A program made the position numbers and the translations under genes. Positions 6,346-29,393 of a stretch of 64,000 nucleotides of DNA are shown piece after piece. The DNA comes from Paraburkholderia sp. BL10I2N1 (lineage in GTDB: Bacteria; Pseudomonadota; Gammaproteobacteria; Burkholderiales; Burkholderiaceae), in contig NZ_SNWA01000002.1 in the NCBI RefSeq assembly GCF_004361815.1, forward strand, positions 1,922,001 to 1,986,000, in the 5' to 3' direction. The notes below the pieces were generated by a model, which did not search any database, was not told the origin of the DNA, and worked only from the letters and a program-made list of their open reading frames with translations. How positions within the stretch are numbered: position 1 is the stretch's first letter; each line of letters begins with the position of its first letter.

Positions 6346-6365
6346 AGGTGAGAGCATTCGGGAGC
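6346..6365 (+). repeat. Dispersed 20-bp intergenic motif, copy A
   Basis: AGGTGAGAGCATTCGGGAGC. It matches the window-wide consensus WGGTGAGANNNTTCGGGANC and lies in a gene-free spacer. Confidence 0.7.
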
Positions 6366-6445
6366 CGGTGCCGGCCATTTTCCGGTAACCTGCGATGTGC
6401 TTTTTCCCGATCAATCTGAATGTGCGAACGTTGTCGCGATACCGG

Positions 6446-6459
6446 TCGCGATATCGCGA
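6446..6459. promoter_or_regulatory. Perfect 14-bp palindrome upstream of MFS gene
   Basis: TCGCGATATCGCGA is its own reverse complement. The left half TCGCGATA also occurs 12 bases earlier (6434-6441), giving a tandem half-site. It lies about 80 bases before the MFS start, a usual place for a repressor operator. No regulator gene is adjacent. Confidence 0.5.
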
Positions 6460-6539
6460 GCGGCTCCGGTGGACACAAACAGGACGTGACCGATACTCAG
6501 GCATCCCCTCTTCACGCCCGCGGCGGGCAGACAGACGCC

Positions 6540-7742
6540 ATGCGCACCGCGCAGCGAAGTCAGACGCTGATGCTTGCCGCGCGGCTCTCGCTGGGTAGCG
6601 CCATCGCCCTCGGGCTTGCGCGGTTTTCCTACGCACTCCTGCTGCCGGCGATGAAAGTCGATCTGGGCTGGAGTTTCGCGCAGGCGGGTGCAATGAACAC
6701 CGCCAACGCACTCGGCTACCTGCTGGGCGCGCTGGCGTTTCCGCGTCTCTCGCGCCGCTGGTCGGCGGGGGCATTGTTCAATGCCGGTTGTCTCGCTACC
6801 GCGTTGCTGATGGCGACGGACGGGCTACTCTCCGATACGCATGGTTTGCTCGTGCAACGAGTGGTCACGGGCATTGCCAGCGCCTTCATTTTTATCAGCG
6901 GCGGCGTGCTGGCGGCGCGGCTTGCGTCGGCAAGCCCACGCGATGCCGGGCTCGTGCTCGGGCTGTATTACGGCGGCACCGGGTGGGGCATCGTGGCGTC
7001 CGCGTTATTGGTTCCGGTGACGATCGTCGGTGCCGTGCACGGTTGGCAATTTGCATGGTTCGCACTGGCCGTCTCCTGCGCGGTGTTCTCGATCATCGCG
7101 ATCCTCGCCGTACGAAAGATCGAGGACCACGAAGCCGCGCCGTCTCCTGCGCGCGCCGCATCCGCTGCTACCCGCTCCCATCCGACGTGGCCGCGGTTTG
7201 CGCTGGCGCTGGCGGGCTACGGTCTCTTCGGCGTGGGCTATATCGGGTACATGACCTTCATCGTCGCGCTGCTCCGCAATGCCGGCATGAGCGCGGTAGT
7301 GGTGACAGGGTTCTACGTGCTGCTCGGCGCGGCGACGATCGTGTCGGCGAGACTCTGGTCGAGCCTACTGGATCGCGTGCGCGGCGGTCAGGCACTGGCG
7401 ATTCTCAACGCGTTGCTCGGACTGGCAACGCTGATGCCTGCGCTGTTCACGCAGCCGCTGGTTGCGTTTGTGTCAGGGGTGATGTTCGGCGCGACGTTCC
7501 TGTCGGCCGTTGCCTCGACGACCGCGTTCGTCCGTCACAACCTGCCAGCCGGTCATTGGGCTAAAGGCATCAGCGCTTTCACGATCGTGTTTGCGTTCGG
7601 CCAGATCGTCGGGCCGATGGTGATCGGCTGGGTGTCGGATGGCGCGGGACTCGCGCGCGGACTGATCGATTCCGCGCTCCTGCTGGGCGTGGGCGCTGTG
7701 CTGGCGGCCTGTCAGAAGCCGCTCGACGCACAGGGTGACTGA
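6540..7742 (+). CDS. YbfB/YjiJ-family MFS transporter
   Basis: About 400 residues with twelve predicted helices. The first reads RLSLGSAIALGLARFSYALLLPAMKVDLGW, the hallmark of the YbfB/YjiJ group (GxxRFxYxLLLPxM). The substrate is unknown; members are treated as putative sugar or drug carriers. I use the ATG at 6540; a GTG at 6486 is also in frame and would add 18 residues, but its AGGA is only one base away. The gene stands alone, divergent from the AI-2E permease and converging on garR. The 14-bp palindrome upstream suggests control by a dimeric repressor. Confidence 0.85.
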   Translation: MRTAQRSQTLMLAARLSLGSAIALGLARFSYALLLPAMKVDLGWSFAQAGAMNTANALGYLLGALAFPRLSRRWSAGALFNAGCLATALLMATDGLLSDTHGLLVQRVVTGIASAFIFISGGVLAARLASASPRDAGLVLGLYYGGTGWGIVASALLVPVTIVGAVHGWQFAWFALAVSCAVFSIIAILAVRKIEDHEAAPSPARAASAATRSHPTWPRFALALAGYGLFGVGYIGYMTFIVALLRNAGMSAVVVTGFYVLLGAATIVSARLWSSLLDRVRGGQALAILNALLGLATLMPALFTQPLVAFVSGVMFGATFLSAVASTTAFVRHNLPAGHWAKGISAFTIVFAFGQIVGPMVIGWVSDGAGLARGLIDSALLLGVGAVLAACQKPLDAQGD

Positions 7743-7785
7743 CCGACGAGGCGCTGGGCCGCGAGCCTCGCGCCCGTCACGAGTC

Positions 7786-8676
7786 TTACTTTTGCTGACC
7801 GATTTCGTGATTCGCCAGGATCTCCAGCGCGCGGACCATCGCCGAGTGATCCCACGCCTTGCCGCCGTGCGCTACGCACGCGTTGAAGAGCGCCTGACAC
7901 GTCGCCGTATTCGGCAGCGATACACCGAGCGATTGCGCCGTCGATAGCGCAAGGTTCAAATCCTTCTGGTGCAGTTCGATACGAAAGCCCGGGTCGAAGG
8001 TGCGTTTGGTCATCCGTTCACCGTGCACTTCCAGAATCCGTGATGAAGCGAAGCCGCCCATCAATGCTTCACGCACGCGCGCCGGATCGACTCCGGCCTT
8101 CGACGCCAGCAGCAATGCCTCGCCTACCGCCTCGATCGTCGCGGCGACGATCACCTGGTTCGCCACCTTGCAAACCTGTCCTGCGCCGACGTCGCCGATC
8201 AGTGTGACGTTCTTGCCCATCATGTCGAAGAGGGGCTTGACGCGGTCGAAGCTCGCCTGCTTGCCGCCGACCATGATCGTCAGCGAGCCAGCCTTCGCGC
8301 CGACCTCGCCACCTGACACCGGCGCGTCCAGATACTCGGCCCCATGCTTCTGCACGCGCGCGGCAAACTCGCGCGTGGCCATCGGCGAAATCGAACTCAT
8401 GTCGACGACGGTCTGGCCTGGGCGCAGTGCGTCTGCGAGCCCCTGTTCATCGAACAGCACGCGTTCGACATCCGGCGTATCCGGCACCATGATGAAGATC
8501 ACGTCCGCGTGGGCGGCGACGGCTGCGGGGCTGTCGCACGCAACGGCGCCAGCCTGCTTCAGGTCGTCGGGCACGCCGCTGCGCGTGAAGGCCGCGAGCG
8601 ACACGCCATTCTTGAGAAGATTCGCGGCCATGGGCTTGCCCATGATGCCGAGACCGATAAATCCTGCTTTCTGCAT
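7786..8676 (-). CDS. garR: 2-hydroxy-3-oxopropionate (tartronate semialdehyde) reductase
   Basis: NAD(P)H-dependent reductase of the beta-hydroxyacid dehydrogenase family that turns tartronate semialdehyde into D-glycerate. The 296 residues match GarR/GlxR length. The Rossmann signature GFIGLGIMGKPMAANL starts at residue 5, the substrate loop DAPVSGGEVGA is at about 117-127 and the catalytic lysine is Lys170 in CKVANQ. It starts 51 bases after the garL stop on the same strand, so the pair is very likely one transcript. GarL releases tartronate semialdehyde and pyruvate, and GarR reduces the former. GlxR of glyoxylate metabolism is a near neighbour in sequence, but the garL partner favours the glucarate/galactarate role. 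Confidence 0.9.
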   Translation of the reverse strand: MQKAGFIGLGIMGKPMAANLLKNGVSLAAFTRSGVPDDLKQAGAVACDSPAAVAAHADVIFIMVPDTPDVERVLFDEQGLADALRPGQTVVDMSSISPMATREFAARVQKHGAEYLDAPVSGGEVGAKAGSLTIMVGGKQASFDRVKPLFDMMGKNVTLIGDVGAGQVCKVANQVIVAATIEAVGEALLLASKAGVDPARVREALMGGFASSRILEVHGERMTKRTFDPGFRIELHQKDLNLALSTAQSLGVSLPNTATCQALFNACVAHGGKAWDHSAMVRALEILANHEIGQQK

Positions 8677-8727
8677 GTGATCCTCCGTTCGTTGCCTGGC
8701 CTGTCGAGCTTTCCCGCTCGCCCCAGC

Positions 8728-9513
8728 TTACTCGTGAATGAAATGCTTCTGGACCGCCTGCGCCGCGCCCCTCAACAGACCGAGATCCGCGCAGACGGCG
8801 ACGACCCGACAGCCCATCGACAGATAGCGTTCCGCGTCGGCCTGCACCGGCGCGAGGATGCCGCTCGCCTTGCCGCCGGCGCGCGCGCTCGCGAAGATGC
8901 GCTCGATGGCCTGCTGCACGTCCGGATGATTCGCGTTGCCGAGATGTCCGTACGCGGCCGCGAGATCGGACGGTCCGACGAACACCGCGTCGACGCCTTC
9001 AACCGCGACGATTTCATCGATCGCTTCCACGGCCGCGCGACTCTCGATCTGGACGATGACGCAGATGTTGTCGTTCGCGACGTCGAGATAGTTTGGCACC
9101 GTGCCATAGCGGTTCGCGCGATGTCCGACCGACACACCCCGTACGCCATGCGGCGGATAGCGTGTCGCGGCGACGGCGCGGCGGGCGTCCTCCGCACTGT
9201 CGACAAACGGAATCAGGAAGTTATAGAAACCGATGTCGAGCAGCCGTTTGATGCCGACGTTTTCGTTGCACGGCGGCCGCACGACCGGCGCGCTGCGGCT
9301 GTCCTTGAGCGCCATCAACTGGGGGATGAGCGTGTTGACATCGTTGGGTGCGTGCTCCGCGTCGAGCAGCAGCCAGTCGAAGTTCAACACGCCGAGGAGT
9401 TCAGTCACGATCGGGCTGGCTAGCGACGACCAGCAACCGATCACGGTCTCGCCGCTCAACACCGACTTGCGAAATCCGTTGGGTAACGGCTGATAAGGTG
9501 AAGACGCTGTCAT
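8728..9513 (-). CDS. garL: 5-keto-4-deoxy-D-glucarate aldolase (HpcH/HpaI family)
   Basis: Class II, metal-dependent retro-aldolase giving pyruvate and tartronate semialdehyde from keto-deoxy-glucarate. The 261-residue protein begins [21 protein letters not shown] and has the family motif [13 protein letters not shown], a substrate-binding arginine in VRPP, and the metal ligands Glu in VQIES and Asp in FVGPSDLA. It is the first gene of a garL-garR pair. It has a long (529-bp) upstream region with a strong inverted repeat about 76 bases before the start. No gudD/garD dehydratase or uptake gene lies next to it. Confidence 0.88.
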
Positions 9514-10042
9514 TCTCCGTTCCTCCAGATGGGGCTTTCCGAAAGCCAGCCCGGTCGGGCGGCGATGGGCGCAAAGGTGTCACGATTGCAAATCAAAATC
9601 TTGATTTGTTATCGGTCGTCGTATGTCTTGTCGAGTAGGTTATACCGTTTTATGCCGCAGCCAACAGGATGGTTAACCCTGATAAGTGCGGATTTAAACG
9701 GCATTTTATTTCCGGATGAAGGTTCTCTTGTTGTACGACGACTGATATTTATATGGAACAATCGCGACCTGACCATGTGTCCAGGCCGCGGTTGGGCAAT
9801 CGTCCGCAACTTCACCCATCTTAGTTCCGGGCGTGCGCCGCTCCAACGCGGCGTCGCGCTGGTTTCCGCCGGCGCCTGTCATTTCCCGCACATCCTCGCG
9901 ACGAAAGCCATGAAACATCACGCCGGAGGTGTGGTCGCGAGCGCTGATGTTGTGTTGCCGGACGTGGCCCGTGCGACGGTTACCCGACGGCGCCTCAGCA
10001 GCCCTCATCCGATCCGGGCTGCAAACGTGAAATGGAGCTTGT
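9514..10042. other. Divergent intergenic spacer with AT-rich segment (529 bp)
   Basis: Between garL (minus) and the Met-rich protein gene (plus). Part of it (about 9580-9770) is clearly richer in A/T than its surroundings, as expected for promoters. Apart from the inverted repeat at 9589-9608 I see no feature or convincing gene. Confidence 0.55.
9589..9608. promoter_or_regulatory. Inverted repeat, probable operator of garL-garR
   Basis: CAAATCAA and TTGATTTG are perfect 8-bp arms around the 4-base centre AATC. The site lies 76 bases before the garL start in a promoter-like AT-rich stretch, fitting a dimeric transcription factor. The regulator is not in the window. Confidence 0.5.
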
Positions 10043-10336
10043 ATGAAATCGATTCGACAAATGGTGCTGTGCGGAATGCTTCCGCTGGTTCTGGGAGCCG
10101 GTGCTGCGCACGCGCAGGGCATCGGGCACAGCGGCATGTACACCATGCCGCCGAACTGGGGGATGATGATGGATAAGTTGACTCCCGAGCAGCGGAGCCA
10201 GGCCATCGACATCCAGGAAAAGATGATGAAGATGGACATGGAGCATCAGCAAGCCACGGCGCAGATGGAAATGAAATACGCGCAGGGCATGATGCAGTTG
10301 CAGACTGAACTGCTGGATATCTTCAAGGGGCATTGA
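10043..10336 (+). CDS. Methionine-rich periplasmic protein, unknown function
   Basis: A 97-residue protein with a cleavable signal peptide (cut predicted after Ala-His-Ala, residue 24). The 73-residue mature part has 13 methionines, in GMMMDKL, KMMKMDM and QMEMKYAQGMM. Such Met/His clusters suit soft-metal (copper or silver) binding or a small helical chaperone; the C-terminal two thirds looks like one long amphipathic helix, as in CpxP/Spy-like proteins. The LTPEQR segment also recalls the LTxxQ motif of that family. This is inference from composition. GGAG in ATGGAGCTTGTATG serves as the ribosome-binding site. The patatin gene follows after 97 bases. Confidence 0.75.
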   Translation: MKSIRQMVLCGMLPLVLGAGAAHAQGIGHSGMYTMPPNWGMMMDKLTPEQRSQAIDIQEKMMKMDMEHQQATAQMEMKYAQGMMQLQTELLDIFKGH

Positions 10337-10433
10337 CGTCGAGCGGTGAACGGCCGGGGCCGCCGTGGGCGCGAGACAGTCACGCGCCCATACTCTGGCT
10401 CCCGGGTTCCGCTTGTGACGTTTCTGAAAAGTC

Positions 10434-11315
10434 ATGAAATCCGATCGGCTTGGGGTAACCGCGTTTGTGTTCGCAGGTGGTGGCAGTCTCGGCGCGATCG
10501 AGGTGGGCATGCTGCGCGAACTGCTCGCACGGGGCGAGCATCCGGGCTTCGTCGTCGGTGCGTCTGCCGGCGCGATCAACGCGGCGTACTTCGCCGGGCG
10601 CCCGGACAGCGACGGCGTCGCGACGCTCGAAGGGCTGTGGCGCAAGATCCGCCGGCAGGACATCATGCCGCTGTCGATGCTCGGGCTGCTTTCGATGATT
10701 CTGCGCACCCGTCCGCATCTCGTCGAGTCACATGCGCTGCGCGTCCTGCTGGAAAAGCATCTGACCTATGAGCGGATCGAGCAGGCGCTGTTGCCGCTTC
10801 ACATCGTCGCGACCGACATGCTTGCGGGTCACGAGGTCGTGCTCTCTTCGGGCCCGGTGGTGAATGCCGTGCTCGCAAGCGCGGCGATCCCAGGTGTGTA
10901 TCCGCCGGTGCGGATCGACGGGGTGGATCTCGTCGATGGCGGCGTGGCCAGCAACACGCCGATCGCCGCCGCGATCAAGCTCGGCGCGACGCGCATCATC
11001 GTGTTGCCTGCCGGCTTCGCATGTGCGCTGCACGCGCCGCCCAGCAGCGCGATCGCGCAGGCGATGCATGCGCTGACGCTGGTGATCGCAAGGCAACTCG
11101 TGCGCGATCTGGAGTACTACGGGACGCGCGCGCAGATCTATGTCGTTCCGCCGCTATGTCCACTCGATGTATCGCCGTACGACTACGGGCAATGTGCTCA
11201 ACTGATCGAACGCGCCGCGCAGACAACGCGCGCATGGCTCGACGACGGCGGTCTCGAGCAGGCGTTCATTCCCGGCGAATTGCGCGACCACCAGCACACG
11301 GCGGCGGCGCATTAG
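10434..11315 (+). CDS. Patatin-like phospholipase
   Basis: Serine acyl hydrolase with a Ser-Asp dyad, acting on phospholipids or acyl-CoA-like esters. All patatin blocks are present: the glycine-rich oxyanion loop [13 protein letters not shown] (13-25), the nucleophile elbow GASAG with Ser44, and the DGGVASNTP block with Asp168. At 293 residues it is the single-domain bacterial type, close to RssA/YchK-like proteins, and has no signal peptide, so it should act in the cytoplasm. It follows the Met-rich gene on the same strand and converges on the DUF1810 gene. Confidence 0.88.
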
Positions 11316-11422
11316 GGGCAAGGATTGCCCTCGTCCATTCACTTCGCGACGGATTGAACGTTGATCGGCAAACGGTTGGACCTGAAGCGAGACGGCACGG
11401 CGCGTCCGGGATTTTCGCTCCG

Positions 11423-11872
11423 TCATGCGCTGGAACCTGGCGGAGAGGTGGCCTGGATCCGCTGCAGCGTTTGCCTATCGGCCTTGCCGTCGAAATATTT
11501 GCGCAGCGCTTCCAGAAATTCCTCGTTGTCCGGAATGGCACGCTCGAACAAGCTTATCGACGACCAGAACTTCAGGTGATCCGGGTAGCCGAAAATCTCC
11601 TGGATCGAACGCCCTTCGATCAGGTTGACGAGTCGCGTGCACTCCCGCAACCGGTCGCCGAGTATTGGGTGGCGCAGATAGGCCTCGGCTTCGGCCAACG
11701 TCGAGATCGCGTACCGTTGCGACATTGCGCTTTCCCCGAGGCCCTGGATCTGCGGAAACACGAACCACATCCAGTGACTTCGCTTGCGCCCGGCACGCAA
11801 TTCATCACAGACCTGCACATACACCGGCTGCTGCGCATCGACAAAGCGCTGGAGATCATAGGGGTCGTCCAT
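11423..11872 (-). CDS. DUF1810 family protein
   Basis: The 149-residue protein carries the typical DUF1810 blocks: YDLQRFVDAQQPVY at the start, KRSHWMWFVFPQIQGLG, then ISTLAEAEAYLRHPILGDRLREC and a C-terminal FWSSISLFE. The start is fixed at 11872 by GGAGG five bases upstream. The family (relatives of E. coli-type YccJ-like calpastatin annotations) has no proven biochemical role. It is transcribed alone, converging on the patatin gene. Confidence 0.85.
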   Translation of the reverse strand: MDDPYDLQRFVDAQQPVYVQVCDELRAGRKRSHWMWFVFPQIQGLGESAMSQRYAISTLAEAEAYLRHPILGDRLRECTRLVNLIEGRSIQEIFGYPDHLKFWSSISLFERAIPDNEEFLEALRKYFDGKADRQTLQRIQATSPPGSSA

Positions 11873-12051
11873 ATCGGCCTCCGTTCGTCGACCTTCAGTA
11901 GTTTTACACCCAAACGCCGAAGCGTGAAGGCTTAGCCGAGTCAACAAGAATGGCGATGCCTGCTGGATTTCAGATCGACGCGCCCAACGCTACGCCTTAT
12001 TGCGCAAAAGTGATTTCGATCCCCGGGACTTCTGTGGTGAGAGGCAGCTAC

Positions 12052-12066
12052 CTAGACTCGGTCTAG
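12052..12066. promoter_or_regulatory. Inverted repeat upstream of bicupin gene
   Basis: CTAGAC and GTCTAG are perfect 6-bp arms around TCG, 70 bases before the bicupin start. The layout suits a TetR-like or other dimeric regulator. CTAG is rare in such genomes, which makes a double occurrence more notable. Confidence 0.45.
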
Positions 12067-12135
12067 TCGTCGGGGCAAGCAGCACGTACACGAAGGCGTC
12101 TGCACGACTCGACCTCTAACCCACCGGAGCCGACC

Positions 12136-13080
12136 ATGTTGAACAGAACATCCCCCGCCAACCTCGGAGACGCATCTCCGGCAACCCAGGACGCGGAATA
12201 CTTCGAGTACACCTCATCTGCCAATCCGATTGGCGCGAAGCTCATCTCGCGCATTCCGTTCTGGAGTTTCCCGCCTTCGCTGTACGCAGACGGCGCAACG
12301 CGTGTGGTGCCACTCGACCTTTCTGTCGAACTGGGCTGCCCGGGCCCGGCAACAGGTCCAGGATTGAGCGCCAGCTTTCTAAGAATCAACACGGGCGACA
12401 AACTGACACTTGCTCCTGACGCGACGTCGCAGGTTTGCTACGTCATCAGCGGGGCCGGCAGCATGACCCAGGGGGAGACGACCTTTCCTTTCGCGCAGGG
12501 CGACTTTTTCACCCTGCCGGGAGGCACGGCCGCCGCGTTGTCGGCCAGCGCGACCGCCACGCTCTACTACGTCAACGACGCCCCGTTGCTGACCTACCTC
12601 GGCACGACCGGCGTGCGCGCACGCTTTGCTCCGACGCTGTATCCGGCCGCACAGGCGCAGGCCGAACTGCGCAAGGTTGCGCAAGACGTCAACGCGGGCC
12701 GCCGCAACCGTATCAGTGTTTTGATGGGCAACGCCAACTTCCCGCAAACGCGGACAGTCACGCACGTGCTGTGGGCGATGTTCGGCATCGTGCCGCCCAA
12801 CTCGGTGCAGAAGCCGCATCGCCATCAATCGATTGCACTCGACTTCATCGCCGGGGGCCACCCGGGCGTCTACACGCTGGTCGGTACCAGACTGGACGAG
12901 AGCGGCAACATCGCGAATCCGACCCGCATCGATTGGGAATCCGGGATGGCGTTTGTGACGCCGCCTGGGTACTGGCACGCCCACTACAATGAAACGAACA
13001 ATAACGCCTACGTGATTCCGATTCAGGATGCCGGCCTGCAAACGTGGCTGCGCACACTCGATATCCAGTTCGCACGCTAG
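12136..13080 (+). CDS. Bicupin-domain protein
   Basis: A 314-residue protein made of two cupin folds. The first (about 75-150) shows the barrel pattern QVCYVISGAGSMTQGETTFPFAQGDFFTLPGG but lacks the histidine cluster. The second (about 210-300) keeps metal-ligand-like residues in PHRHQS and, downstream, GYWHAHYNE, so one metal site is likely. Length and double-barrel layout resemble gentisate 1,2-dioxygenase-type proteins, but the ligand pattern is not clear enough to name a substrate. It is tail-to-tail with a LysR gene: both stop codons share CTAG at 13077-13080. Confidence 0.75.
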   Translation: MLNRTSPANLGDASPATQDAEYFEYTSSANPIGAKLISRIPFWSFPPSLYADGATRVVPLDLSVELGCPGPATGPGLSASFLRINTGDKLTLAPDATSQVCYVISGAGSMTQGETTFPFAQGDFFTLPGGTAAALSASATATLYYVNDAPLLTYLGTTGVRARFAPTLYPAAQAQAELRKVAQDVNAGRRNRISVLMGNANFPQTRTVTHVLWAMFGIVPPNSVQKPHRHQSIALDFIAGGHPGVYTLVGTRLDESGNIANPTRIDWESGMAFVTPPGYWHAHYNETNNNAYVIPIQDAGLQTWLRTLDIQFAR

Positions 13081-14030
13081 GCGTCGGGCTCCAGGGCGAG
13101 TCCGTCGTCCCAGTAGGGCGGCTCGCCGATCACCTCGGCATGGAAATCGACGAACGCACGTACCTTCGACGAAACGATCTTCTTGGGCGGATAAACTGCC
13201 CAGATCGCGGGTTCGGCTCGACCGGTGCGCGCTTCCCATCCGGGCAGCACGCGGATCAGGCGTCCCTCGCGCAATGCCGGACCCGCGAGCCAGGTCGGCA
13301 GGAGCGCGACACCGCATCCGGCCAGCGCCATCTTCAGCACCGCTTCGGAATCGTCCCCACGGAAGCGCACCTTCAGTTCGACGAGCCGCTGCTCCGAGTC
13401 CGCATTCGTGTTCCCCTCGCGCAGGAAAAGCCATTTGTTGTCCGGCAGCAGGGACAGGCGCAGCGAAGCGTGAGCCGCCAGATCGTCAGGGATGCAAGGC
13501 GTTCCATTCCGCTCGAAATAGTCTGGACTACCGCACACGATCCGCCGATGCGGCGCAAGCCGTCTGGCCATCAAGGACGAATCGGGCAGCGCCCCGATGC
13601 GTACCGCAACGTCGATGCCGGCTTCGATCATGTTCAGCGTCTGGTCGGTCACGACAATGTCGAGATCGATATCCGGGTTGCGCCTCATGAATTCCGGAAG
13701 ATGCGGCACGATGTGCAGGCGCCCGAACGCGGAGGGCAATGTGACGCGTAGCAAGCCCTGCGGCGTCCGGTTCAGGGACGACGTGATCTGGCGTGCGTCA
13801 TCGAGCGCCTGCAGCACAACCAGCGCGTGCTCACGAAAGACCCGGCCGCCTTCGGTCAGCAAGAGACCTCGCGTTGACCGGTTGAAGAGGGCGATTCCCA
13901 GATCCTTTTCCAGTTCGCTCACATATCGCGAGATGGTGGAAGTCTTGACGGCCATTTCATGAGCGGCCTTGCTGAAGCTCTGCAGTTCCGCTGCATGAAC
14001 GAAGGCGCGCACCGCTGCAAGATAGTCCAT
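13077..14030 (-). CDS. LysR-family transcriptional regulator
   Basis: A 317-residue regulator with an N-terminal winged helix-turn-helix (residues 1-60, AFVHAAELQSFSKAAHEMAVKTSTISRYVSELEKDLG) and a C-terminal periplasmic-binding-like effector domain (90-300). The helix-turn-helix and the RSTRGLLLTEGG wing are typical of the group that often controls nearby oxidoreductase or catabolic genes. It overlaps the bicupin gene at the stop codon, so it is not divergent from its likely target in the usual LysR layout. The target is unknown; the benzoate genes upstream on the same strand are possible. Confidence 0.9.
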   Translation of the reverse strand: MDYLAAVRAFVHAAELQSFSKAAHEMAVKTSTISRYVSELEKDLGIALFNRSTRGLLLTEGGRVFREHALVVLQALDDARQITSSLNRTPQGLLRVTLPSAFGRLHIVPHLPEFMRRNPDIDLDIVVTDQTLNMIEAGIDVAVRIGALPDSSLMARRLAPHRRIVCGSPDYFERNGTPCIPDDLAAHASLRLSLLPDNKWLFLREGNTNADSEQRLVELKVRFRGDDSEAVLKMALAGCGVALLPTWLAGPALREGRLIRVLPGWEARTGRAEPAIWAVYPPKKIVSSKVRAFVDFHAEVIGEPPYWDDGLALEPDA

Positions 14031-14132
14031 GGAGTTCCGGATGCTGGTCGGGGAGCAGGTAGTGTACCGGCGCGAAGCGCCAGCCGCGCATCGCTTTGAG
14101 CGAGCGGTGAGTACAACGAGGCGACCCGCTCA

Positions 14133-14152
14133 CCTCCAGAAAAGTCTCACCG
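14133..14152 (-). repeat. Dispersed 20-bp intergenic motif, copy H (variant)
   Basis: On the minus strand CGGTGAGACTTTTCTGGAGG. Its core GGTGAGACTTTTC is identical to copy B at 24874; it then reads TGGAG where the consensus has GGGAG. It lies in the 139-bp spacer between LysR and the alpha/beta hydrolase. Confidence 0.5.
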
Positions 14153-14169
14153 TAACGCGACGCTCGCGA

Positions 14170-15000
14170 TCAAGGAGCGTTGATGAACTCCGCAATCTCG
14201 TCGTTCAATAACGCGCCTGCCTGACGATGGGGCGAGTGTCCGCAGCCGGTCAGTTTTGTCAGCTGTGCATGGGCGACATGCTGCTGGATCAGATCGATTT
14301 GCGCCATCGTGCCGTATTCGTCGTCATAGCCCTGCAAGGCGAGTAACGGACACTCGATAGACGCGAGCACTCCGGTGATGTCCCAGAGACGGAAGTCGGC
14401 GTCGAGCCAGATATCGTTCCAGCCATAAAATGCGGAGTCGACGTCGTCATGATAACGGGCGAGCTTCTCGCGAAAGCCAGACGCTTCATAAGCGACTTTT
14501 GCTTCGGCGATGGCGTCAACCGACTTCTGCTCGACGATCACGTGTGGCGCGACGACGATGACGCCACCCAGCGTCTTCGGGAACGCCGCAGCGTAAAGCA
14601 GCGCGATGGAGCCGCCGTCGCTGTGTCCGATGAGCCACATACGGGCGCGCTCGGCGGGGTCGATTTCAAGCGCATCGAGGAAGGCGGGCAGCACATCGTG
14701 CGCCTGCCTGTGCATGAAATCGACAGGCCATTTCACGTCATGCTCGCGTGGCGTCGAGCGGCCATAGCCTGGCCGCGAATACACGAGGCCGCGAAAGCCG
14801 AGCCTGTCGCAGAGCGTTTGCGGCCAGTCTTTCCACAACGCGATGGAGCCTAGCCCCTCGTGCAGAAATATGGCAAGTGGCGCACCGACGCGTTCCGGAT
14901 TCAGCCACTGGTATTCGAGGCGCAGCGGGCCGCGTTCAGCGGTCGGGGGCAATTCCGCGAAAGCGATGGAGGGCGGAAGGTTTGTAGCGAGGCGGTCCAT
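14170..15000 (-). CDS. Alpha/beta hydrolase of the benzoate (box) cluster
   Basis: A 276-residue alpha/beta hydrolase with the segment FLHEGLGSIALWKDWP in place of the usual HG oxyanion motif, the nucleophile elbow GHSDGG (Ser near 126), the acid segment LLALQGYDDEYGT and a final catalytic His in GCGHSPH. It starts 64 bases after bclA and ends the minus-strand box operon. Hydrolases at this place in box clusters are thought to recycle dead-end CoA thioesters or lactones; this is context only. Substrate unknown. Confidence 0.82.
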   Translation of the reverse strand: MDRLATNLPPSIAFAELPPTAERGPLRLEYQWLNPERVGAPLAIFLHEGLGSIALWKDWPQTLCDRLGFRGLVYSRPGYGRSTPREHDVKWPVDFMHRQAHDVLPAFLDALEIDPAERARMWLIGHSDGGSIALLYAAAFPKTLGGVIVVAPHVIVEQKSVDAIAEAKVAYEASGFREKLARYHDDVDSAFYGWNDIWLDADFRLWDITGVLASIECPLLALQGYDDEYGTMAQIDLIQQHVAHAQLTKLTGCGHSPHRQAGALLNDEIAEFINAP

Positions 15001-15064
15001 GGACAGTCAGTCTGGAGTTGATCGGTTTGCGCTCGACATCGTACGTTGGTTCAACGCAATTCCA

Positions 15065-16657: not shown

Positions 16658-16757
16658 GCTTGTCTCCTGACGTGGGCGACGCATGTGCGGCTGCGCTTGT
16701 CGCAAGCCGCCACGCGTTCTGTAGGGATTGATGCGGGGTCCCGATTCGTTCGGCGCT

Positions 16758-19101: not shown

Positions 19102-19132
19102 TCATCAACAGCTCTGGAAGGAACGGGTCAAC

Positions 19133-20068: not shown

Positions 20069-20129
20069 AAGTGAATTATCCTGCTATTGAATGGCTGTCC
20101 GGAGAAACCCTTAATAAGAACTAAAGTGC

Positions 20130-20158
20130 TTTACCCGGCAGAAAAGATGCACTATCGT
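20130..20158 (+). promoter_or_regulatory. Probable boxC promoter
   Basis: TTTACC (20130-20135) and TATCGT (20153-20158), 17 bases apart, fit a moderate sigma-70 promoter. TGCA (20148-20151) directly precedes the -10. The string GCACTAT overlaps the -10 here and in the boxR promoter, pointing to a common repressor, most simply BoxR. Confidence 0.45.
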
Positions 20159-20183
20159 ACATTCAACCAACTCGCAATGTACG
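20156..20183 (+). promoter_or_regulatory. Inverted repeat abutting the boxC ribosome-binding site
   Basis: CGTACATT (20156-20163) and AATGTACG (20176-20183) are perfect 8-bp arms 12 bases apart. AAGGAG (20184-20189) follows at once, and the boxC ATG is at 20196. It could be an operator or, in the mRNA, a stem next to the Shine-Dalgarno sequence. Confidence 0.5.
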
Positions 20184-20195
20184 AAGGAGACATCC

Positions 20196-21938: not shown

Positions 21939-22017
21939 GCCGCAGTCCAGGCAATCCCCGTCCGCGCGCACCTTCACCGATCACGCACAGCAAGCGCCCA
22001 AGCCTGAGGAACCGAAC

Positions 22018-23445
22018 ATGTCCACGATTAACTACAGCGAAAAGATTCCGAATAACGTCAACCTCGCCGATGACCGCACGCTGCAGCGCGCGCTTGAACA
22101 ATGGCAGCCGAACTTCCTGTCATGGTGGGGCGATATGGGCCCGGAGGGCTCGCCGAATTACGACGTCTATCTGCGCACGGCGGTGAGCGTCGATCCGGGC
22201 GGCTGGGCGCATTTCGATCACGTGAAGATGCCCGACTATCGCTGGGGCATCTTCCTTACCCCGGGCGACGCAGACCGCAAGATCAACTTCGGCGAGCACA
22301 AGGGCGAAGCGGCCTGGCAGGACGTGCCCGGCGAGCATCGCGCGAACCTGCGCCGGATCATCGTCACGCAGGGCGACACGGAACCCGCATCGGTCGAACA
22401 GCAACGGCATCTCGGGATGACCGCGCCTTCGATGTACGATCTGCGCAACCTCTTCCAGGTGAACGTCGAGGAAGGGCGCCACCTGTGGGCAATGGTATAC
22501 CTGCTGCATCGTTACTTCGGCCGTGACGGTCGCGAGGAAGCGGATGCATTGCTCGAGCGCCGCTCCGGCGACGACAACAATCCGCGCATTCTCGGCGCCT
22601 TCAACGAACGTACGCCGGACTGGCTGTCGTTCTTCATGTTCACGTACTTCACGGATCGCGACGGCAAATTCCAGCTGTCCGCGCTCGCCGAATCCGGCTT
22701 CGACCCGCTCGCACGCACGACGAAGTTCATGCTGACCGAAGAAGCCCATCACATGTTCGTCGGCGAATCAGGCGTGTCGCGCGTGATCCAGCGCACCGCG
22801 CAGGTGATGAACGAACTCAAGACCGACGACGTCAACAAGATCCGCGCGGCTGGCGTGATCGACCTCGAAACGCTTCAGCGCTACCTGAACTTCCACTACT
22901 CGGTGACGATCGACCTGTTCGGTGCGGATCATTCATCGAATGCAGCGACCTTCTATAGCTCGGGTCTCAAGGGCCGTTACGAAGAAACGAAGCGCGACGA
23001 CGACCATCAACTGACCGGTCAGAGCTACAAGCTGCTGGACGTGCAGGACGGCAAGCTCGTCGAGCGCGAAGTGCCGATGCTCAACGCGATGAACGAAGTG
23101 CTGCGCGACGATTACATCAAGGATTCGGTGGCAGGTGTCGGCCGCTGGAACAAGGTGCTCGAAAAAGCAGGCATCGATTTCCGCATGACCGTTCCGCATA
23201 AGGCATTCAATCGGCAGATCGGCACGTTCGCCGGGGTGCGCGTGGCGCCCGACGGTCGCGTCATGAACGAAAGCGAATGGCAGGCGAATCAGGCCAAATG
23301 GCTGCCGACGCCGGAAGATCGCGCGTATGTGGCGTCATTGATGGGGCGTGTCGTCGAACCGGGCAAGTTCGCGAACTGGATCGCACCGCCGGCGATGGGC
23401 ATCAACCGTCAGCCGATCGACTTCGACTACGTGCGCTTCAACTGA
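22018..23445 (+). CDS. boxB: Benzoyl-CoA 2,3-epoxidase, oxygenase subunit B
   Basis: Di-iron monooxygenase that epoxidises the ring of benzoyl-CoA with electrons from BoxA. The 475 residues agree with known BoxB. Carboxylate-bridged di-iron ligands are visible in NVEEGRHLWAMVYLL and in LTEEAHHMFVGESG, the two EXXH-type helices. It starts 79 bases after boxC and is followed after 97 bases by boxA. The three-gene order C-B-A on one strand is the standard one in Burkholderia and Azoarcus. Confidence 0.95.
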   Translation: MSTINYSEKIPNNVNLADDRTLQRALEQWQPNFLSWWGDMGPEGSPNYDVYLRTAVSVDPGGWAHFDHVKMPDYRWGIFLTPGDADRKINFGEHKGEAAWQDVPGEHRANLRRIIVTQGDTEPASVEQQRHLGMTAPSMYDLRNLFQVNVEEGRHLWAMVYLLHRYFGRDGREEADALLERRSGDDNNPRILGAFNERTPDWLSFFMFTYFTDRDGKFQLSALAESGFDPLARTTKFMLTEEAHHMFVGESGVSRVIQRTAQVMNELKTDDVNKIRAAGVIDLETLQRYLNFHYSVTIDLFGADHSSNAATFYSSGLKGRYEETKRDDDHQLTGQSYKLLDVQDGKLVEREVPMLNAMNEVLRDDYIKDSVAGVGRWNKVLEKAGIDFRMTVPHKAFNRQIGTFAGVRVAPDGRVMNESEWQANQAKWLPTPEDRAYVASLMGRVVEPGKFANWIAPPAMGINRQPIDFDYVRFN

Positions 23446-23542
23446 GTGTTAGCTGAGCTTTAACCTGGCATCAACCGAGCAATACCAGGCGTACGGACGC
23501 GATGCAATTGGCTGCGACGTCCGTACGCAGGGGGAGACAAAT

Positions 23543-24790
23543 ATGAACGGCCCAGCCCCGATACAAGTGCTCAAGCAGCATCTGATCGACCCGGAGATCT
23601 GCATTCGCTGCAACACATGCGAAGAGACCTGCCCCGTCGACGCCATCACGCACGACGACAACAACTACGTCGTCAAGGCCGATGTGTGCAATGGCTGCAT
23701 GGCCTGCGTGTCGCCCTGCCCGACGGGTGCGATCGACAACTGGCGCATGGTGCTCAAGGCCGACGCATACAGCATCGAAGAACAGTTCACGTGGGACGAG
23801 TTGCCCGCACAGAACACGACGGCGAGTGCGGCGCTCGATACCCTCGCGGCACAACCAGGTGCGGAAGGCGAGTCGACCGAAATGTCGGATGGCATCGAGG
23901 TCGACACCGTGCGCGGTTCGACGCTGCCGCCGTGGTCGGCAGCTAAGCCCTACGTCAACCTTTATACGCATAAAGTCCCGGTGTCGGCGACGGTAGTCGG
24001 CAACTACCGGCTAACCGACGAGACGACCGGGAGCGACATACATCACATCGTGCTCGATTTTGGAACGATGCCGTTCCCGGTGCTGGAAGGACAGTCGATC
24101 GGCGTGCTGCCGCCGGGCGCGACGAAAGACGGCAAGGCATATCATGCGCGGCAGTATTCGATCGCAAGTCCGCGCGACGGTGAACGCAAGGGCTACAACA
24201 ACCTCTCGCTGACGGTAAAACGCGTGACGCGGGACTATCAGGGCAACGAGGCAGACGGCGTTTGCTCGAACTATCTCTGTGACCTCAAGAAGGGCGACAA
24301 GGTCGACGTAATCGGTCCGTTCGGCAGCACGTTCCTGATGCCGAATCATCCGAGCTCGCATCTGCTGATGATCTGCACCGGTACCGGTTCGGCACCGATG
24401 CGGGCGATGACGGAATATCGCCGTCGTCGCCGTCTGAAGGGTGCGACTGGCAAGTTGATGCTGTTTTTCGGGGCGCGGACCAAGGAAGAGTTGCCGTACT
24501 TCGGGCCGCTCGTCAATCTGCCGCGCGACTTCATCGACACGACGTTCGCGTTTTCACGCACGCCTGGTCAAGCGAAGCGATATGTGCAGGACGCGATGCG
24601 TGAACGCAGCGCGGACGTGGCCCAGTTGCTGCGCGATGCGAACACCTACATTTATGTGTGCGGGCTCAAGGGCATGGAAGACGGTGTGTTGCAGGCGTTG
24701 GGTGATATCGCGGAACAGAACGGCCTGGAGTGGGACCCGTTGTGGCAGACGCTCAAGCGGGAAGGGCGGCTGCATCTGGAGACGTATTGA
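23543..24790 (+). CDS. boxA: Benzoyl-CoA 2,3-epoxidase, reductase subunit A
   Basis: NADPH- and FAD-dependent electron donor for BoxB. The N-terminal ferredoxin part has two 4Fe-4S motifs: Cys20-x2-Cys23-x2-Cys26-x3-Cys30 and Cys49-x2-Cys52-x2-Cys55-x3-Cys59. A linker of about 60 residues follows. The C-terminal two thirds is a ferredoxin-NADP reductase fold with the FAD motif RQYSIASP, the NADPH loop [14 protein letters not shown] and a C-terminal [12 protein letters not shown]. It ends the boxCBA operon and is followed 21 bases later by a strong hairpin. Confidence 0.95.
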
Positions 24791-24810
24791 GTGTTGCGGC
24801 GGCGGTTTCA

Positions 24811-24834
24811 GGACACCCGGTTGATTGGGTGTCC
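24811..24834 (+). terminator. Hairpin ending the boxCBA operon
   Basis: GGACACCC and GGGTGTCC form a perfect 8-bp GC-rich stem with an 8-base loop, 21 bases after the boxA stop. There is no T-run after it, so it may work with Rho or protect the 3' end. Confidence 0.6.
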
Positions 24835-24873
24835 ACCGATGCAGACGTTGCCGTTGTACATATACAGCGCTAA

Positions 24874-24893
24874 AGGTGAGACTTTTCGGGATC
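24874..24893 (+). repeat. Dispersed 20-bp intergenic motif, copy B
   Basis: AGGTGAGACTTTTCGGGATC, in the gap between boxA and the convergent aminotransferase. Confidence 0.7.
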
Positions 24894-25029
24894 GAGCGAA
24901 CGGTGCGTCGCGCGCTGCCGGCTTGCGCACCGCTCCACCGTTAGCCATGGTCTGCGACGAAGAAACAGCTTAACGGTGAGCGGAACGAAAGCACGCCTGA
25001 CATCCGGTCAGCACGTCGCGAACAGCCTG

Positions 25030-26157
25030 TTACCTGCGTGCTGCCTCGCGCAGAAAGTCGGAGACTTTCGCGAGACCAGCTTCGAGCACCTGGCGGTTGT
25101 TCGTATAGCCGATCCGCACATAGCCTTCCATATCCATCGCGCTACCCGGCGTGAACATCACACCCGTCTTTTCGAGCAGTGCGATACAGAAGTCGCGTGA
25201 CGACATGTCGAGATCGAAACGCACCAGCGCAGTCGTGCCGGACTTCGGCTTGACGTAGGAGAGCAGGGGTTCCTTCGCGATCCACGCATCCAGCAGCGCC
25301 AGATTGCCGCGCAGGATGTCGTGGTTACGCTTCAGGATCGCGTCGCGGTTCTCCAGCGCAATCGAAGCGAACAGGTCGTTCAGCATGCCGACACTGATCG
25401 TGTTGTAGTCGCGATGAATCTGCACGCGATGAATCAGGTCCACAGGCGCCACGATCCAGCCCACACGCAGGCCTGCGAGCGACCACGTCTTCGACACGCT
25501 GCCGCTGCTGATGCCCTTTTCGTACAGGTCAGCGACCGATACCGTGAAACCATCGCCTTCCTGGTCGGTGCCGCGATAGACCTCGTCGCACAGCACCCAG
25601 GCGCCACACGTTCGCGCAATGTCGATGAATTGCTCGAGGAACGCTCGGTCCATCAGCGAACCGGTCGGGTTGTTTGGGTTGTTGATCGCGATGATGCGTG
25701 TGTTGTCTTTGACGAGGCGCTTCAGTTCTTCAAGATCCGGCAGGAAGCCGTTTTCCTCGCGCAGCGGCAGGATATCGACGTTCGCGCCATAGCTCGCGGG
25801 AATCGAATAGTGCTGCTGATACGTCGGCAGCACTGAGATCACATGGTCGCCCGGTTCGACGAGCGTTTCATACACCAGCGCATTCGCGCTGATCGCGCCG
25901 TGCGTGATCAGCACATTCGGGACCTGCTGCTCTTCGTACAGCGAAGCCACGTTCGAACGCAGCCGCTCGGTGCCGTCGATCGCGCCATAGGTCAGCTTGA
26001 GCGGCAGTATCTCGGCGAGGATCGAGTCCCGCTTGCCGGAGATCTCCAGCAGTTCTTCGACCGTGAGCGACTCGACGCAGGTTTCCGCGAGATTCAGCTC
26101 GCAGTGGTCCTCATAGAGATCCATCCAGCGTTCGACACCGAATTCCCTGATTTTCAT
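25030..26157 (-). CDS. Class I/II PLP-dependent aminotransferase
   Basis: A 375-residue fold-type I aminotransferase. The PLP lysine is Lys223 in SVSKTWSLAGLR; other cofactor residues lie in NNPNNPTG (159-166) and DEVYRG (191-196). The start at 26157 is supported by AAGGA a short way upstream, while the frame further upstream (26158-26313) has no protein character. The N-terminal MKIREFGVERWMDLYED and the capreomycidine-synthase-like pattern are shared with a group often annotated only as aminotransferase; the amino donor and product are unknown. It stands alone, converging on the box operon and preceded by a gene-poor gap. Confidence 0.87.
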   Translation of the reverse strand: MKIREFGVERWMDLYEDHCELNLAETCVESLTVEELLEISGKRDSILAEILPLKLTYGAIDGTERLRSNVASLYEEQQVPNVLITHGAISANALVYETLVEPGDHVISVLPTYQQHYSIPASYGANVDILPLREENGFLPDLEELKRLVKDNTRIIAINNPNNPTGSLMDRAFLEQFIDIARTCGAWVLCDEVYRGTDQEGDGFTVSVADLYEKGISSGSVSKTWSLAGLRVGWIVAPVDLIHRVQIHRDYNTISVGMLNDLFASIALENRDAILKRNHDILRGNLALLDAWIAKEPLLSYVKPKSGTTALVRFDLDMSSRDFCIALLEKTGVMFTPGSAMDMEGYVRIGYTNNRQVLEAGLAKVSDFLREAARR

Positions 26158-26313
26158 GACTTCCGTCCTTGAATTGAAGAAGCACGTGCGCAGCAGGCTG
26201 TAGTCGCGAAGAGCAGCGACCGGTCGTGATGAAGTATAGACTAAAAAGTCTATATTGGACTGACTGGAATTAAATGGAAGGGGCGGCGGGTCCTCGCCGA
26301 TTCGTCCGTTCAA

Positions 26314-26333
26314 TGGTGAGATAGTTCGGGAGC
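26314..26333 (+). repeat. Dispersed 20-bp intergenic motif, copy C
   Basis: TGGTGAGATAGTTCGGGAGC, preceded by CAA as in copy F. Confidence 0.7.
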
Positions 26334-26600
26334 CGACGCGCGTCTATGCGAGAACAGGCCTGGCCGCCGGATTCGCGGCTGCGCTCCCCCGTTTGATGTT
26401 CTGGCCGTTTCCGGCGTCTCTCCGAAAAGCACTGCGTGAGAATGGATACTGAACGCCACTGCTCGACGACATCGAGTAGCGCTCTCGCTCACGAGGGTCA
26501 ACGACACGGAGATGCAACAGCGCCAACTTGCCCTGCGCATTGCCATCGTTGATATGCACGCGCATCAGTTGTTTACGGGCATAGAAGGTTCGGCGACGAA

Positions 26601-26620
26601 TGGTGAGAGTTTTCGGGAGG
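26601..26620 (+). repeat. Dispersed 20-bp intergenic motif, copy D
   Basis: TGGTGAGAGTTTTCGGGAGG. Confidence 0.7.
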
Positions 26621-26930
26621 TGACGCTGGAGCCTCGTGTTTTGCGTTTTCGGTGCGCACGTCGAGGCTCGAAAAACGTGATCGCGAGTGGCTTCGACTTC
26701 CTCACCGGTCCGTTCGGGCAATGGCAGGAACAGGCATTCGACAACGCTCTGCATTCACCCGGAGAGCCTTGTAGATAAAGGCTTGGCGAGGATCGATGCG
26801 ATCGCGGCCGCGCCACACCTATCTGCCTGATGAACGATGCGAAGCTATCGCGAACGATGACGTCGAACGCCATTTTCAGTGCATTGGTCTGGACGGTCGC
26901 ACTATCGCATGCGACACGATTCGCGCCCTT

Positions 26931-26950
26931 AGGTGAGATTTTTCGGGAGC
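26931..26950 (+). repeat. Dispersed 20-bp intergenic motif, copy E
   Basis: AGGTGAGATTTTTCGGGAGC. Confidence 0.7.
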
Positions 26951-27075
26951 GTGGGAACGGAATATAACGGACGGACTTCGTCTGTCCTTGCGCCAACAAC
27001 AATCAATACTTTTTGCGCATAAAGACAACGCGTGAGAACGAGCCGCTGGCACGCCCGTTATCGTTCACGTCGCAG

Positions 27076-29265
27076 TCAAGGAGCGCATGCAACCAGCTCG
27101 CGCAGTTCATCGATATCGAACGGCTTCGCGAGAATCGGCACGCCAAGATGTTTCGCACGCTCGAGTTCGTCAGCGTAGCCCGTCATCAGTGCGATCCGTT
27201 GCGAGGGCCACGAACGTTGTACCGACTCGGCCAGATCGATGCCGCTCAGCCGGCCCGGCATCTGGATGTCCGACAACACCAGATCGAACGTATCGCCTTC
27301 GGCGAGGATCTCGAGGGCGGCGTCGGCGGTCAGTTCATGACGCACCTTGCAGCCGAATACTTCGAGGACGGCGGCGACACCCGCCGCGACCTCTTCGTTA
27401 TCTTCGACCAGCAGCACCGAGCCCTGCGTCGCGTCGGCGTCGTCGAGCGTCGCTCTCGCCGGCGGCTCGACCGGCGCAACCTCTCCGTGATACCGAGGCA
27501 GATAGAGGCGCACCGTCGTGCCTCGCCCTGGCACGCTGTCGATGCGTGCCGTCCCGCCCGCCTGCTCGCACGCGGCCAGCACCTGCGCAAGTCCCAGGCC
27601 TGTGCCTGCGCCGCTCACCTTGGTCGTAAAGAGCGGTTCGAACGCTCGCTGCGCGACGCTTTCCGTCATGCCTTCGCCATCGTCGGACAACGACACCAGC
27701 ACGTAGTCGCCGTCGGGCAGCATGGTATCGCTCGCGGTCAAACGCACGTTTTGACCGCGGATCACGAAGCGGCCACCGAGCGGCATCGCATCGCGCGCGT
27801 TCACGGCGATGTTGAGGATCGCGAATTCGAGTTCAGTCGCGTCGGCGAGCACAGGCCACAGATCGGGCACGACCTGCACACTCACGTGCACCTTATCGCC
27901 GACGGCCGTCTGAACCAGATTGGTTGTCGCCGGCAGCCAGCTGGCGAAGTCCACCGGTTCCTGCTTGAGCGGCTGCTTGCGCGCGACGCTCAACAGGCGC
28001 CGCGCCAGCGACTGTGCGCCAGCGGTCGCACGCTCGACCGCCACCACTTCCTTCTCCAGATCGTTGAAGCCTTTGCGACGCGCGAGCCCCATGTTCGTCG
28101 AGACGACCATCAGCAGATTATTGAAGTCATGAGCGACATTCGCGACGAGATTGCCCAGCGCGCCCATCCGGCGCAACTGGCGGCTCGACGCTTCCGCTGA
28201 AAGACGCATTGCCACTTCGGCTTGCCAGCGTTCCCAGGCGGCCTGTTCGGCTTTCAACTGACGCAGCGAGAACAGCACGAGTACGCAGAGTGCGATGCAC
28301 GGCACGGAGGTGATGGCCGCGATCAGCAGGTAATGCTGCCACCACTGCGTGAAGAGCACGTTTGTCGAGTAGCCTGCCACGACGTAAAGCGGATAGTTGC
28401 CGACGCGCCGGAACGACAGCAGTCGCTCGACGCCATCGACCGTCGACGTCATGCGAATGCGGCCAAACAGCAGGTTGTCGTGCAGCGCTCGCGTGAAGGG
28501 CGTCTCTTCGACTGGCATGACGTCCAGTTTGCCGGCGGGATAACGCGAAAGGATGGCGCCGTCGCGCCGGTACAGGCCGATCGCCACCGACGGATTTTCG
28601 CTGACCAGATCGTGATAGAAGTCGAAGAAGTACTTGCGCTGCAACGCGATCGATACGACGCCGAGAAAGCGTCCGTCTGCGGCAGCGGTGCGTCCCATGT
28701 TGGTGGTGAACACATCCGCCTGGCCGTTCGCGCCGCGCATCGGCAGCGAGAAATACGGCTCAGGACGGATGGCGCGCGCGGACTGGAAGTCGTCGCGGTT
28801 GGCAATCGAAACCCGCGGCACGGGGAAATAGCGGCTGCTTGCCAGCAGATCGCCGTTTGCGCCGAACAGGGAGATCGCCGCGATTTGCGGAAAGTCGCCG
28901 CCGATCGCGCCAAGACGCCGGTGCACCCGTTCTTCCTGCGCGCGGATCTGCTGGTCGTCGCTATCGTTGAGCAGGTCGACGATTCGTGTCGCCATCTCGC
29001 TGTTCAGATCCAGCACCTTGATCGCGTGTTCCTGTGCCACCCGGACGAGCCGGTCGATGACGTCGTTCGCATCAGTCGTGCGGCGCTGGTAGTCGTAATA
29101 GCCATAGCCAATCAGACACACTAGCGGAATCAGCACGGCTGCCGCGAGGACGACCAGCAGAATGCGCCGCGTCTCGGCAAAGTTGCGCGATGGCAGGGGC
29201 AGGTCGAGTGGTGTGGACTCGGTGGGGCGCAAGCTCGCAGTCTCCGTTGGTAACCAGATAGACAT
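27076..29265 (-). CDS. Hybrid sensor histidine kinase with extracytoplasmic sensor and receiver domain
   Basis: A 729-residue membrane sensor. The order is: TM1 (about 34-54), a large periplasmic Cache-like double-PAS sensor (55-305), TM2 (about 311-334), a dimerisation helix with the phosphorylated His379 in NVAHDFNNLL, an ATPase domain with N box NIAVNARDAM (485-494) and G boxes DDGEGM and GAGTGLGL, and a C-terminal receiver with Asp666 in LVLSDIQMP. This layout suits sensing of small organic acids or amino acids and signalling through the attached receiver; no separate response regulator is adjacent. Two copies of the dispersed motif lie just upstream. Confidence 0.9.
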   Translation of the reverse strand: MSIWLPTETASLRPTESTPLDLPLPSRNFAETRRILLVVLAAAVLIPLVCLIGYGYYDYQRRTTDANDVIDRLVRVAQEHAIKVLDLNSEMATRIVDLLNDSDDQQIRAQEERVHRRLGAIGGDFPQIAAISLFGANGDLLASSRYFPVPRVSIANRDDFQSARAIRPEPYFSLPMRGANGQADVFTTNMGRTAAADGRFLGVVSIALQRKYFFDFYHDLVSENPSVAIGLYRRDGAILSRYPAGKLDVMPVEETPFTRALHDNLLFGRIRMTSTVDGVERLLSFRRVGNYPLYVVAGYSTNVLFTQWWQHYLLIAAITSVPCIALCVLVLFSLRQLKAEQAAWERWQAEVAMRLSAEASSRQLRRMGALGNLVANVAHDFNNLLMVVSTNMGLARRKGFNDLEKEVVAVERATAGAQSLARRLLSVARKQPLKQEPVDFASWLPATTNLVQTAVGDKVHVSVQVVPDLWPVLADATELEFAILNIAVNARDAMPLGGRFVIRGQNVRLTASDTMLPDGDYVLVSLSDDGEGMTESVAQRAFEPLFTTKVSGAGTGLGLAQVLAACEQAGGTARIDSVPGRGTTVRLYLPRYHGEVAPVEPPARATLDDADATQGSVLLVEDNEEVAAGVAAVLEVFGCKVRHELTADAALEILAEGDTFDLVLSDIQMPGRLSGIDLAESVQRSWPSQRIALMTGYADELERAKHLGVPILAKPFDIDELRELVACAP

Positions 29266-29329
29266 CGTACCCGGTACGCGCCCTCGGGCCGCAATTCCCG
29301 GGTCGAGAGACAGCGATACGGACCGACAA

Positions 29330-29349
29330 TGGTGAGAACATTCGGGAGC
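29330..29349 (+). repeat. Dispersed 20-bp intergenic motif, copy F
   Basis: TGGTGAGAACATTCGGGAGC. It forms a tandem pair with copy G, 44 bases start to start. Confidence 0.72.
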
Positions 29350-29373
29350 GCTGGCGAGGGCGTTTTGTATGAA

Positions 29374-29393
29374 AGGTGAGGATATTCGGGATC
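29374..29393 (+). repeat. Dispersed 20-bp intergenic motif, copy G
   Basis: AGGTGAGGATATTCGGGATC. It has one change in the left core (GAGG for GAGA). Confidence 0.68.

Follow-up and report, generated by a model that had tools for sequence, protein, structure and literature searches.

The window analysed here, a stretch of 64,000 nucleotides from Paraburkholderia sp. BL10I2N1 (genome G000; C2:1,922,001-1,986,000), contains eight copies of a 20-bp motif (Table 1) that recurs as a tandem array about 20 kb to the left of the window. This array (C2:1,900,712 to about 1,902,460) comprises 20 copies at a weight-matrix score of at least 14, all on the minus strand, the first of which lies approximately 120 bp upstream of repA, an open reading frame (ORF) of 450 amino acids. 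Profile searches identified both Rep_3 winged-helix domains in the repA product (PF01051, 1.3e-11; PF21205, 4.5e-10), and no relative of solved structure was detected by sequence at an E-value of 0.001. Genes of the ParB and ParA types adjoin repA, and a gene with a KfrA_N domain (8.9e-19) is located across the array. Such an arrangement, with short direct repeats in tandem beside the gene for a Rep_3 initiator, is typical of Rep_3 iterons. A study of Burkholderia cenocepacia J2315 gives an iteron consensus for chromosome 2 (c2) that is the reverse complement of this motif, at the same place upstream of a repA-type gene, and a supplement legend refers to further iteron copies, among them a cluster at a distance of 140 kb (Du et al. 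2016, PMC4948915). Because the motif is shared with both the array upstream of the Rep_3 gene and the published consensus, it is almost certainly the iteron of the c2 replication origin and, presumably, the sequence bound by the Rep_3 initiator of that origin, RepA. The eight copies in the window, at distances of 27.8-50.8 kb from the start of repA, are, as judged from sequence, extra-origin iterons and putative RepA sites.

A pattern search of the window allowing up to two mismatches returned exactly seven plus-strand matches, against 0.04 expected, and seven or more were reached in none of 100 shuffles; the minus-strand copy, with one core change, was found at 14135-14151. All eight were recovered where the original prediction, made from the window alone, had placed them. 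At three mismatches, 12 matches were found against 6.1 expected, and the weak matches at 25906, 52005, 56829 and 61795 are therefore at noise level. The sequences to either side of the copies are unrelated (identity between pairs averaging 0.25 on the left and 0.27 on the right, compared with 0.85 in the core), and a matrix built from origin copies only scored them at 20.1-29.0, such that the scattered copies have the sequence of the origin copies. In the 9.2-Mb genome, all eight exact 17-mer cores fall inside 131 kb of contig C2, and when up to one mismatch was tolerated there were 28 matches, 21 of them within C2:1,883,367-2,032,785; a control pattern read backwards gave a single match. A regulator or nucleoid site had been among the suggestions made for this motif, and the former comes close, whereas a genome-wide nucleoid site is at odds with near-exact copies gathered within about 150 kb of one origin. 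The copies had further been described as lying entirely between genes, which is accurate for six of the eight according to our own codon-usage gene caller, no published tool having been used; the copies at 26601 and 29374 overlap very low-scoring ORFs that we take to be spurious.

The occurrence of the motif follows that of RepA. All 24 genomes of the genus, including that of the window, encode RepA with at least 91% identity, and each harbours 10-26 exact copies of GGTGAGNNNNTTCGGGA, which was absent from all 16 genomes of other families, though two of these have a Rep of 32-36% identity. In a sample of 80 genomes from the family, RepA of at least 78% identity was encoded by 29, every one of which carried the motif (1-23 copies), compared with two of the 51 without such a RepA, each with a single copy. 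A further set of 80 named loci, retained from 223 relatives (Paraburkholderia, Caballeronia, Trinickia and records called Burkholderia), had an iteron copy near position -120 of repA in 79 instances, with a median array of 18. The one exception, L250, is a second contig with repA from P. phenoliruptrix LMG 22037, and it lacks an iteron array.

The number and placement of sites beyond the array were determined with a weight matrix derived from 96 origin iterons of five near-complete genomes (G000, G001, G022, G020 and G011), in each of which 360-400 kb was scanned. At a score of at least 15, there were 24, 18, 25, 18 and 23 sites outside the array, respectively, and none in a 160-kb control from the same replicon. 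The scattered sites are thus about equal in number to the iterons of the origin arrays, which hold 18-20 each. Two of these 108 sites were weak matches within repA (G000 and G022) and were dropped from later counts, and sites with a CCAGGA right half (G000, G022 and G011) were included. Iteron-like groups of the CCAGGA type occur at L031:1680-1804 and 3829-4167 (C2:1913680-1916167) and, in 38-bp steps, at G022:C2:1670847-1671196; these repeats may be an iteron variant or the site of another protein.

Two genomes of another genus, G087 and G111, taken from their layout to be Burkholderia in the strict sense, were then added. Across the seven genomes, 144 sites scored at least 18, with 123 of them intergenic against 22.4 expected, and reversed sequence yielded no sites in 2,320 kb. 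Counts exceed chance and coding sequence is avoided; the predicted two-block site with a variable centre, mainly intergenic and probably protein-bound, is real. On the array side of the origin, the density per 100 kb was 46.8 at 2.6-20 kb, then 23.6, 14.0 and 3.0 in successive intervals, 5.0 at 80-100 kb, 3.3 at 100-160 kb and 0 at 160-300 kb. On the repA side it was 5.4 at 1.4-20 kb, 0.4 at 20-60 kb, 0 at 60-100 kb and 10.5 at 100-180 kb, the last of these contributed entirely by G087 and G111. The scattered sites hence thin out with distance from the origin, mainly on the arm opposite repA and parAB. Like extra-origin titration sites of the RctB type, they belong to the same replicon as the origin and lie close to it without being part of it. 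Elsewhere on its replicon, at a distance of 1.49 Mb from repA, G022 has a pair of exact copies that are oppositely oriented (G022:C2:3138264-3138530). In all seven genomes, palindromes with at most two mismatches to the Burkholderia c2 parS consensus were located on the repA side, 2.5-4.3 kb away. Further parS-like palindromes, one letter off this c2 parS, were present on the array side, 44-46 kb from repA and thus distant from the main parS group, three in G001 and two in G020.

The sites are conserved to a greater extent than the genes around them. At about 3 kb from the start of repA, all seven genomes have two sites pointing outward, as do 61 of the 79 named loci for which the sequence was long enough. 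Farther out, at 97-151 kb, a distal pair lies between the same orthologues in four of five genomes (G000, G001, G022 and G020), and G011 has one neighbour in common. G087 and G111 instead have 12-13 sites grouped at 147-160 kb on the other arm, many of them spaced by 22-23 bp; this distal group adjoins orthologues of genes that are 4-6 kb from the G000 distal pair, and the locus seems to have held its rough distance and switched arm. The group also fits the 140-kb cluster mentioned in the legend of Du et al. (PMC4948915). The genes neighbouring the window copies include those for an AI-2E-type transporter, an MFS transporter, a hydrolase, a protein of the ferredoxin reductase type, an aminotransferase and a sensor kinase. 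Most of the neighbouring genes have no counterpart at a similar distance in relatives, whereas sites recur near the origin. Orthologues of the aminotransferase gene (25.0-26.2 kb of the window) lie at +121 kb in G001 and at +168 kb in G020, with no site within 15 kb of either.

Table 1. Extra-origin c2 iterons in the window, with matrix scores and surroundings.
Feature	Position in window	Strand	Score	Context
Extra-origin c2 iteron	6346..6365	+	22.7	Intergenic; 27.8 kb from repA start
Extra-origin c2 iteron, one core change	14133..14152	-	20.1	Intergenic; opposes prevailing polarity
Extra-origin c2 iteron	24874..24893	+	28.4	Convergent gap
Extra-origin c2 iteron	26314..26333	+	22.6	Intergenic
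Extra-origin c2 iteron	26601..26620	+	27.7	Within low-scoring, probably spurious ORF
Extra-origin c2 iteron	26931..26950	+	29.0	Intergenic
Extra-origin c2 iteron, first of pair 44 bp apart	29330..29349	+	22.7	Intergenic
Extra-origin c2 iteron, second of pair	29374..29393	+	28.9	Within low-scoring, probably spurious ORF

One conserved site is located within a gene. On the repA side, 13.0-17.5 kb away, a squalene/phytoene-synthase gene (PF00494, 1.3e-71) contains a site that is mostly translated as Ser-Val-Arg-Ile-Phe-Gly-Met. Of 20 orthologues from RepA-bearing genomes, 19 (seven of seven and 12 of 13) have AGG or AGA as the arginine codon, the exception being G084 with a lysine AAG, though these two codons make up 2.3% of arginine codons. 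The glycine codon is GGG, with a usage of 10%, in all 20. By comparison, 14 aligned relatives without RepA at the 78% threshold had AGG or AGA in no instance and GGG in one. This comparison omits G046, whose best match is no orthologue, as well as G081 and G063, where the alignment misses the place. The codon pattern points to selection on the site as DNA. In the G016 copy of this gene, the matched stretch includes a stop codon.

Sites on the array side also largely share a direction. Between 2.6 and 70 kb, 97 of 103 were directed away from the origin and six towards it; by locus, 46 were directed away, two towards and three were mixed, and at a score of at least 24 the ratio was 62 to 4. The genes neighbouring these polar sites lie on either strand. 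GC skew was considered as the cause and rejected, as it amounts to 1-4% on either arm, by our estimate too small for a ratio of 97:6. A weaker bias was seen in the named loci, where, at 2.6-10 kb, the outward direction was shared by 156 of 182 sites. Beyond the array is an AT-richer stretch of 364-389 bp, and because both the array and the in-gene site of the repA side run opposite to the array-side sites, all three would face outward if replication starts in this stretch.

Identity with the origin iterons and the c2 consensus, clustering at one origin, conservation, polarity and co-occurrence with RepA are all read from sequence. We infer binding of RepA to the scattered copies, which would restrain initiation. 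By analogy with the extra-origin RctB sites of Vibrio cholerae, the scattered iterons are likely to be occupied by RepA and to hold back re-initiation of c2 by titration and/or handcuffing. Approximately 20 iterons make up the origin array, with a similar number scattered singly or in pairs beside it. Once the origin fires, the nearby scattered sites would soon be duplicated, and could then soak up free RepA and/or couple to RepA-bound origins through protein bridges (handcuffing). In this way, the origin would be blocked from a second firing in the same cycle. Some such control, beyond that of a plain plasmid, is to be expected, since c2 segregation was reported to be phased with the cell cycle as well as that of c1, in the order c1-c2-p1/c3 (Du et al. 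2016, PMC4948915). That the motif is the c2 iteron, with scattered copies limiting the firing of the c2 origin, is overall the best explanation, to which we assign a probability of roughly 0.75.

Several observations weigh against this explanation. The origins of G000 and G022 were found to lack DnaA boxes even when one mismatch was allowed. The sites counted may be of more than one kind, because some have the CCAGGA right half. One gene, of 253 amino acids, is flanked by sites in G022 (+37 kb), G020 (+94 kb) and G001 (+104 kb), suggesting that some sites are tied to a gene. Finally, orientation is mixed past 70 kb, and neither the 97:6 polarity nor the one-armed spread is accounted for by titration alone; fork direction or looping geometry may play a role.

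The polarity is the basis of an alternative in which RepA-bound iterons act through their direction relative to outgoing forks, or through loops joining the flank sites to the oppositely oriented array, and not by mere titration; for instance, RepA could be bound in a passable direction, or the sites could organise sister origins. The ratios of 97 to 6 and of 62 to 4, the reversal of the array and in-gene sites, the mixed gene strands and the small skew all favour it. Conversely, the bias is weaker in the named loci, orientation is mixed past 70 kb, the argument supposes a start of replication in the AT-richer stretch, and the sites are non-independent through shared ancestry, so we consider this alternative possible but tentative. 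Control of transcription, whereby RepA or another regulator governs the neighbouring genes, would suit the intergenic placement, the operator-like copy about 120 bp upstream of repA in nearly all named loci, and the 253-amino acid gene, which keeps sites at differing distances. Yet convergent gaps are richer in sites than other gaps (15 of 42 compared with 27 of 202; p = 0.0013), and the neighbours of the window copies are of unrelated kinds and are not kept in place, making such control unlikely. The variation of many copies in number and place among species could also be explained if they were neutral leftovers of copied or rearranged origin arrays, functionless today, but the copies lack origin flanks, and the conservation of the 3-kb pair, the in-gene site and the distal pair renders this improbable. 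The ends of IS21 elements carry several short repeats and IS21-type genes are present in the genome, but the original proposal of terminal repeats from this or another mobile-element family, or remnants of them, can safely be discarded, given that the motif tracks RepA, that the copies share no flanking sequence past about 20 bp, and that none of the 15 IstB_IS21 (PF01695) matches in the genome, istA not being searched, is within 300 kb of a window copy (the nearest on C2 being at 1,230 kb and 2,348 kb).

Iterons of the c2 type were also encountered on another replicon. In G050, G087, G101 and G071 (L291, L292, L293 and L294), two such iterons, 33-34 bp apart, are situated at the origin of the third replicon, about 1.7 kb upstream of a second Rep gene whose product is 36-37% identical to RepA, and, in the loci inspected, beyond repeats of the published c3 iteron type; the pair was not found in G111. 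A strict pair pattern was present in 33 of 61 genomes of the Burkholderia-type genus, with a control of 0. Of these pairs, 31 lie 1,638-1,725 bp upstream of the third-replicon rep gene on the same strand, and the contigs of the other two have no such gene. The rep gene itself is present in 51 of the 61 genomes, and 20 of these therefore lack the strict pair. Outside this genus, the pattern was seen in two of 46 RepA-bearing genomes (G000, on C3, and G023), neither of them with a demonstrated rep gene nearby. The G000 instance is an intergenic pair 33 bp apart on a 0.73-Mb replicon (L028:1466-1518; C3:436736-436785), between ORFs read by eye as ssb and primase, and is 27 kb from a weak Rep-like match. 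Under strict patterns, all listed matches in G011 and G020 were on the repA replicon.

It is conceivable, though we hold it doubtful, that the c2 initiator works through a polar field of sites, largely on one arm, surrounding the c2 origin and also acts at the c3 origin, which would constitute a direct link between replicons; alternatively, the pair may be bound by the Rep of the third replicon. A c2-c3 link, if true, could help to set the reported order c1-c2-c3, as an analogue of crtS between two secondary replicons. A copy on chromosome 1 was likewise considered as a crtS analogue and, within the strict patterns searched, rejected, the four G000 C1 copies with at most one mismatch all being within called genes.

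Off-origin initiator sites that restrain initiation are familiar from the dispersed DnaA sites of Escherichia coli and from P1 incA, the latter being a compact cluster near its origin, unlike the scattered c2 iterons. At datA, too, DnaA sites away from the E. coli origin restrain initiation (PMC3937223); datA and the dispersed sites differ from the present case in that their initiator is DnaA. A closer parallel is that of Vibrio cholerae chromosome II, where extra-origin RctB sites bind and titrate the initiator (Baek and Chattoraj 2014, PMC3937223), though initiator and motif are different, the sites are fewer and the accessible text describes no polarity. The crtS site of V. cholerae places a site for the initiator of one replicon on another, as the third-replicon pair might do, but is a 62-bp site on the primary chromosome, whereas the present pair consists of two putative iterons near the origin of a secondary replicon (PMC11711613). 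As to B. cenocepacia c2, extra copies were already known from the one legend, by which only origin copies are tabulated; the accessible part of that paper was not found to describe polarity, a distance gradient, in-gene conservation or the third-replicon pair (PMC4948915). Our literature search, which covered few subscription papers, found no account of the map of scattered copies, of their polarity, of the in-gene conservation or of the third-replicon pair.

In-depth knowledge of how second chromosomes of plasmid origin fire once per cycle has come mainly from Vibrio. In the clade studied here, an oriented field of presumed initiator sites is kept beside the c2 origin while the surrounding genes turn over, and many Burkholderia-type genomes hold a candidate contact from c2 to c3. 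These replicons would provide a second, independent system in which to address how the replicons of one cell are ordered.

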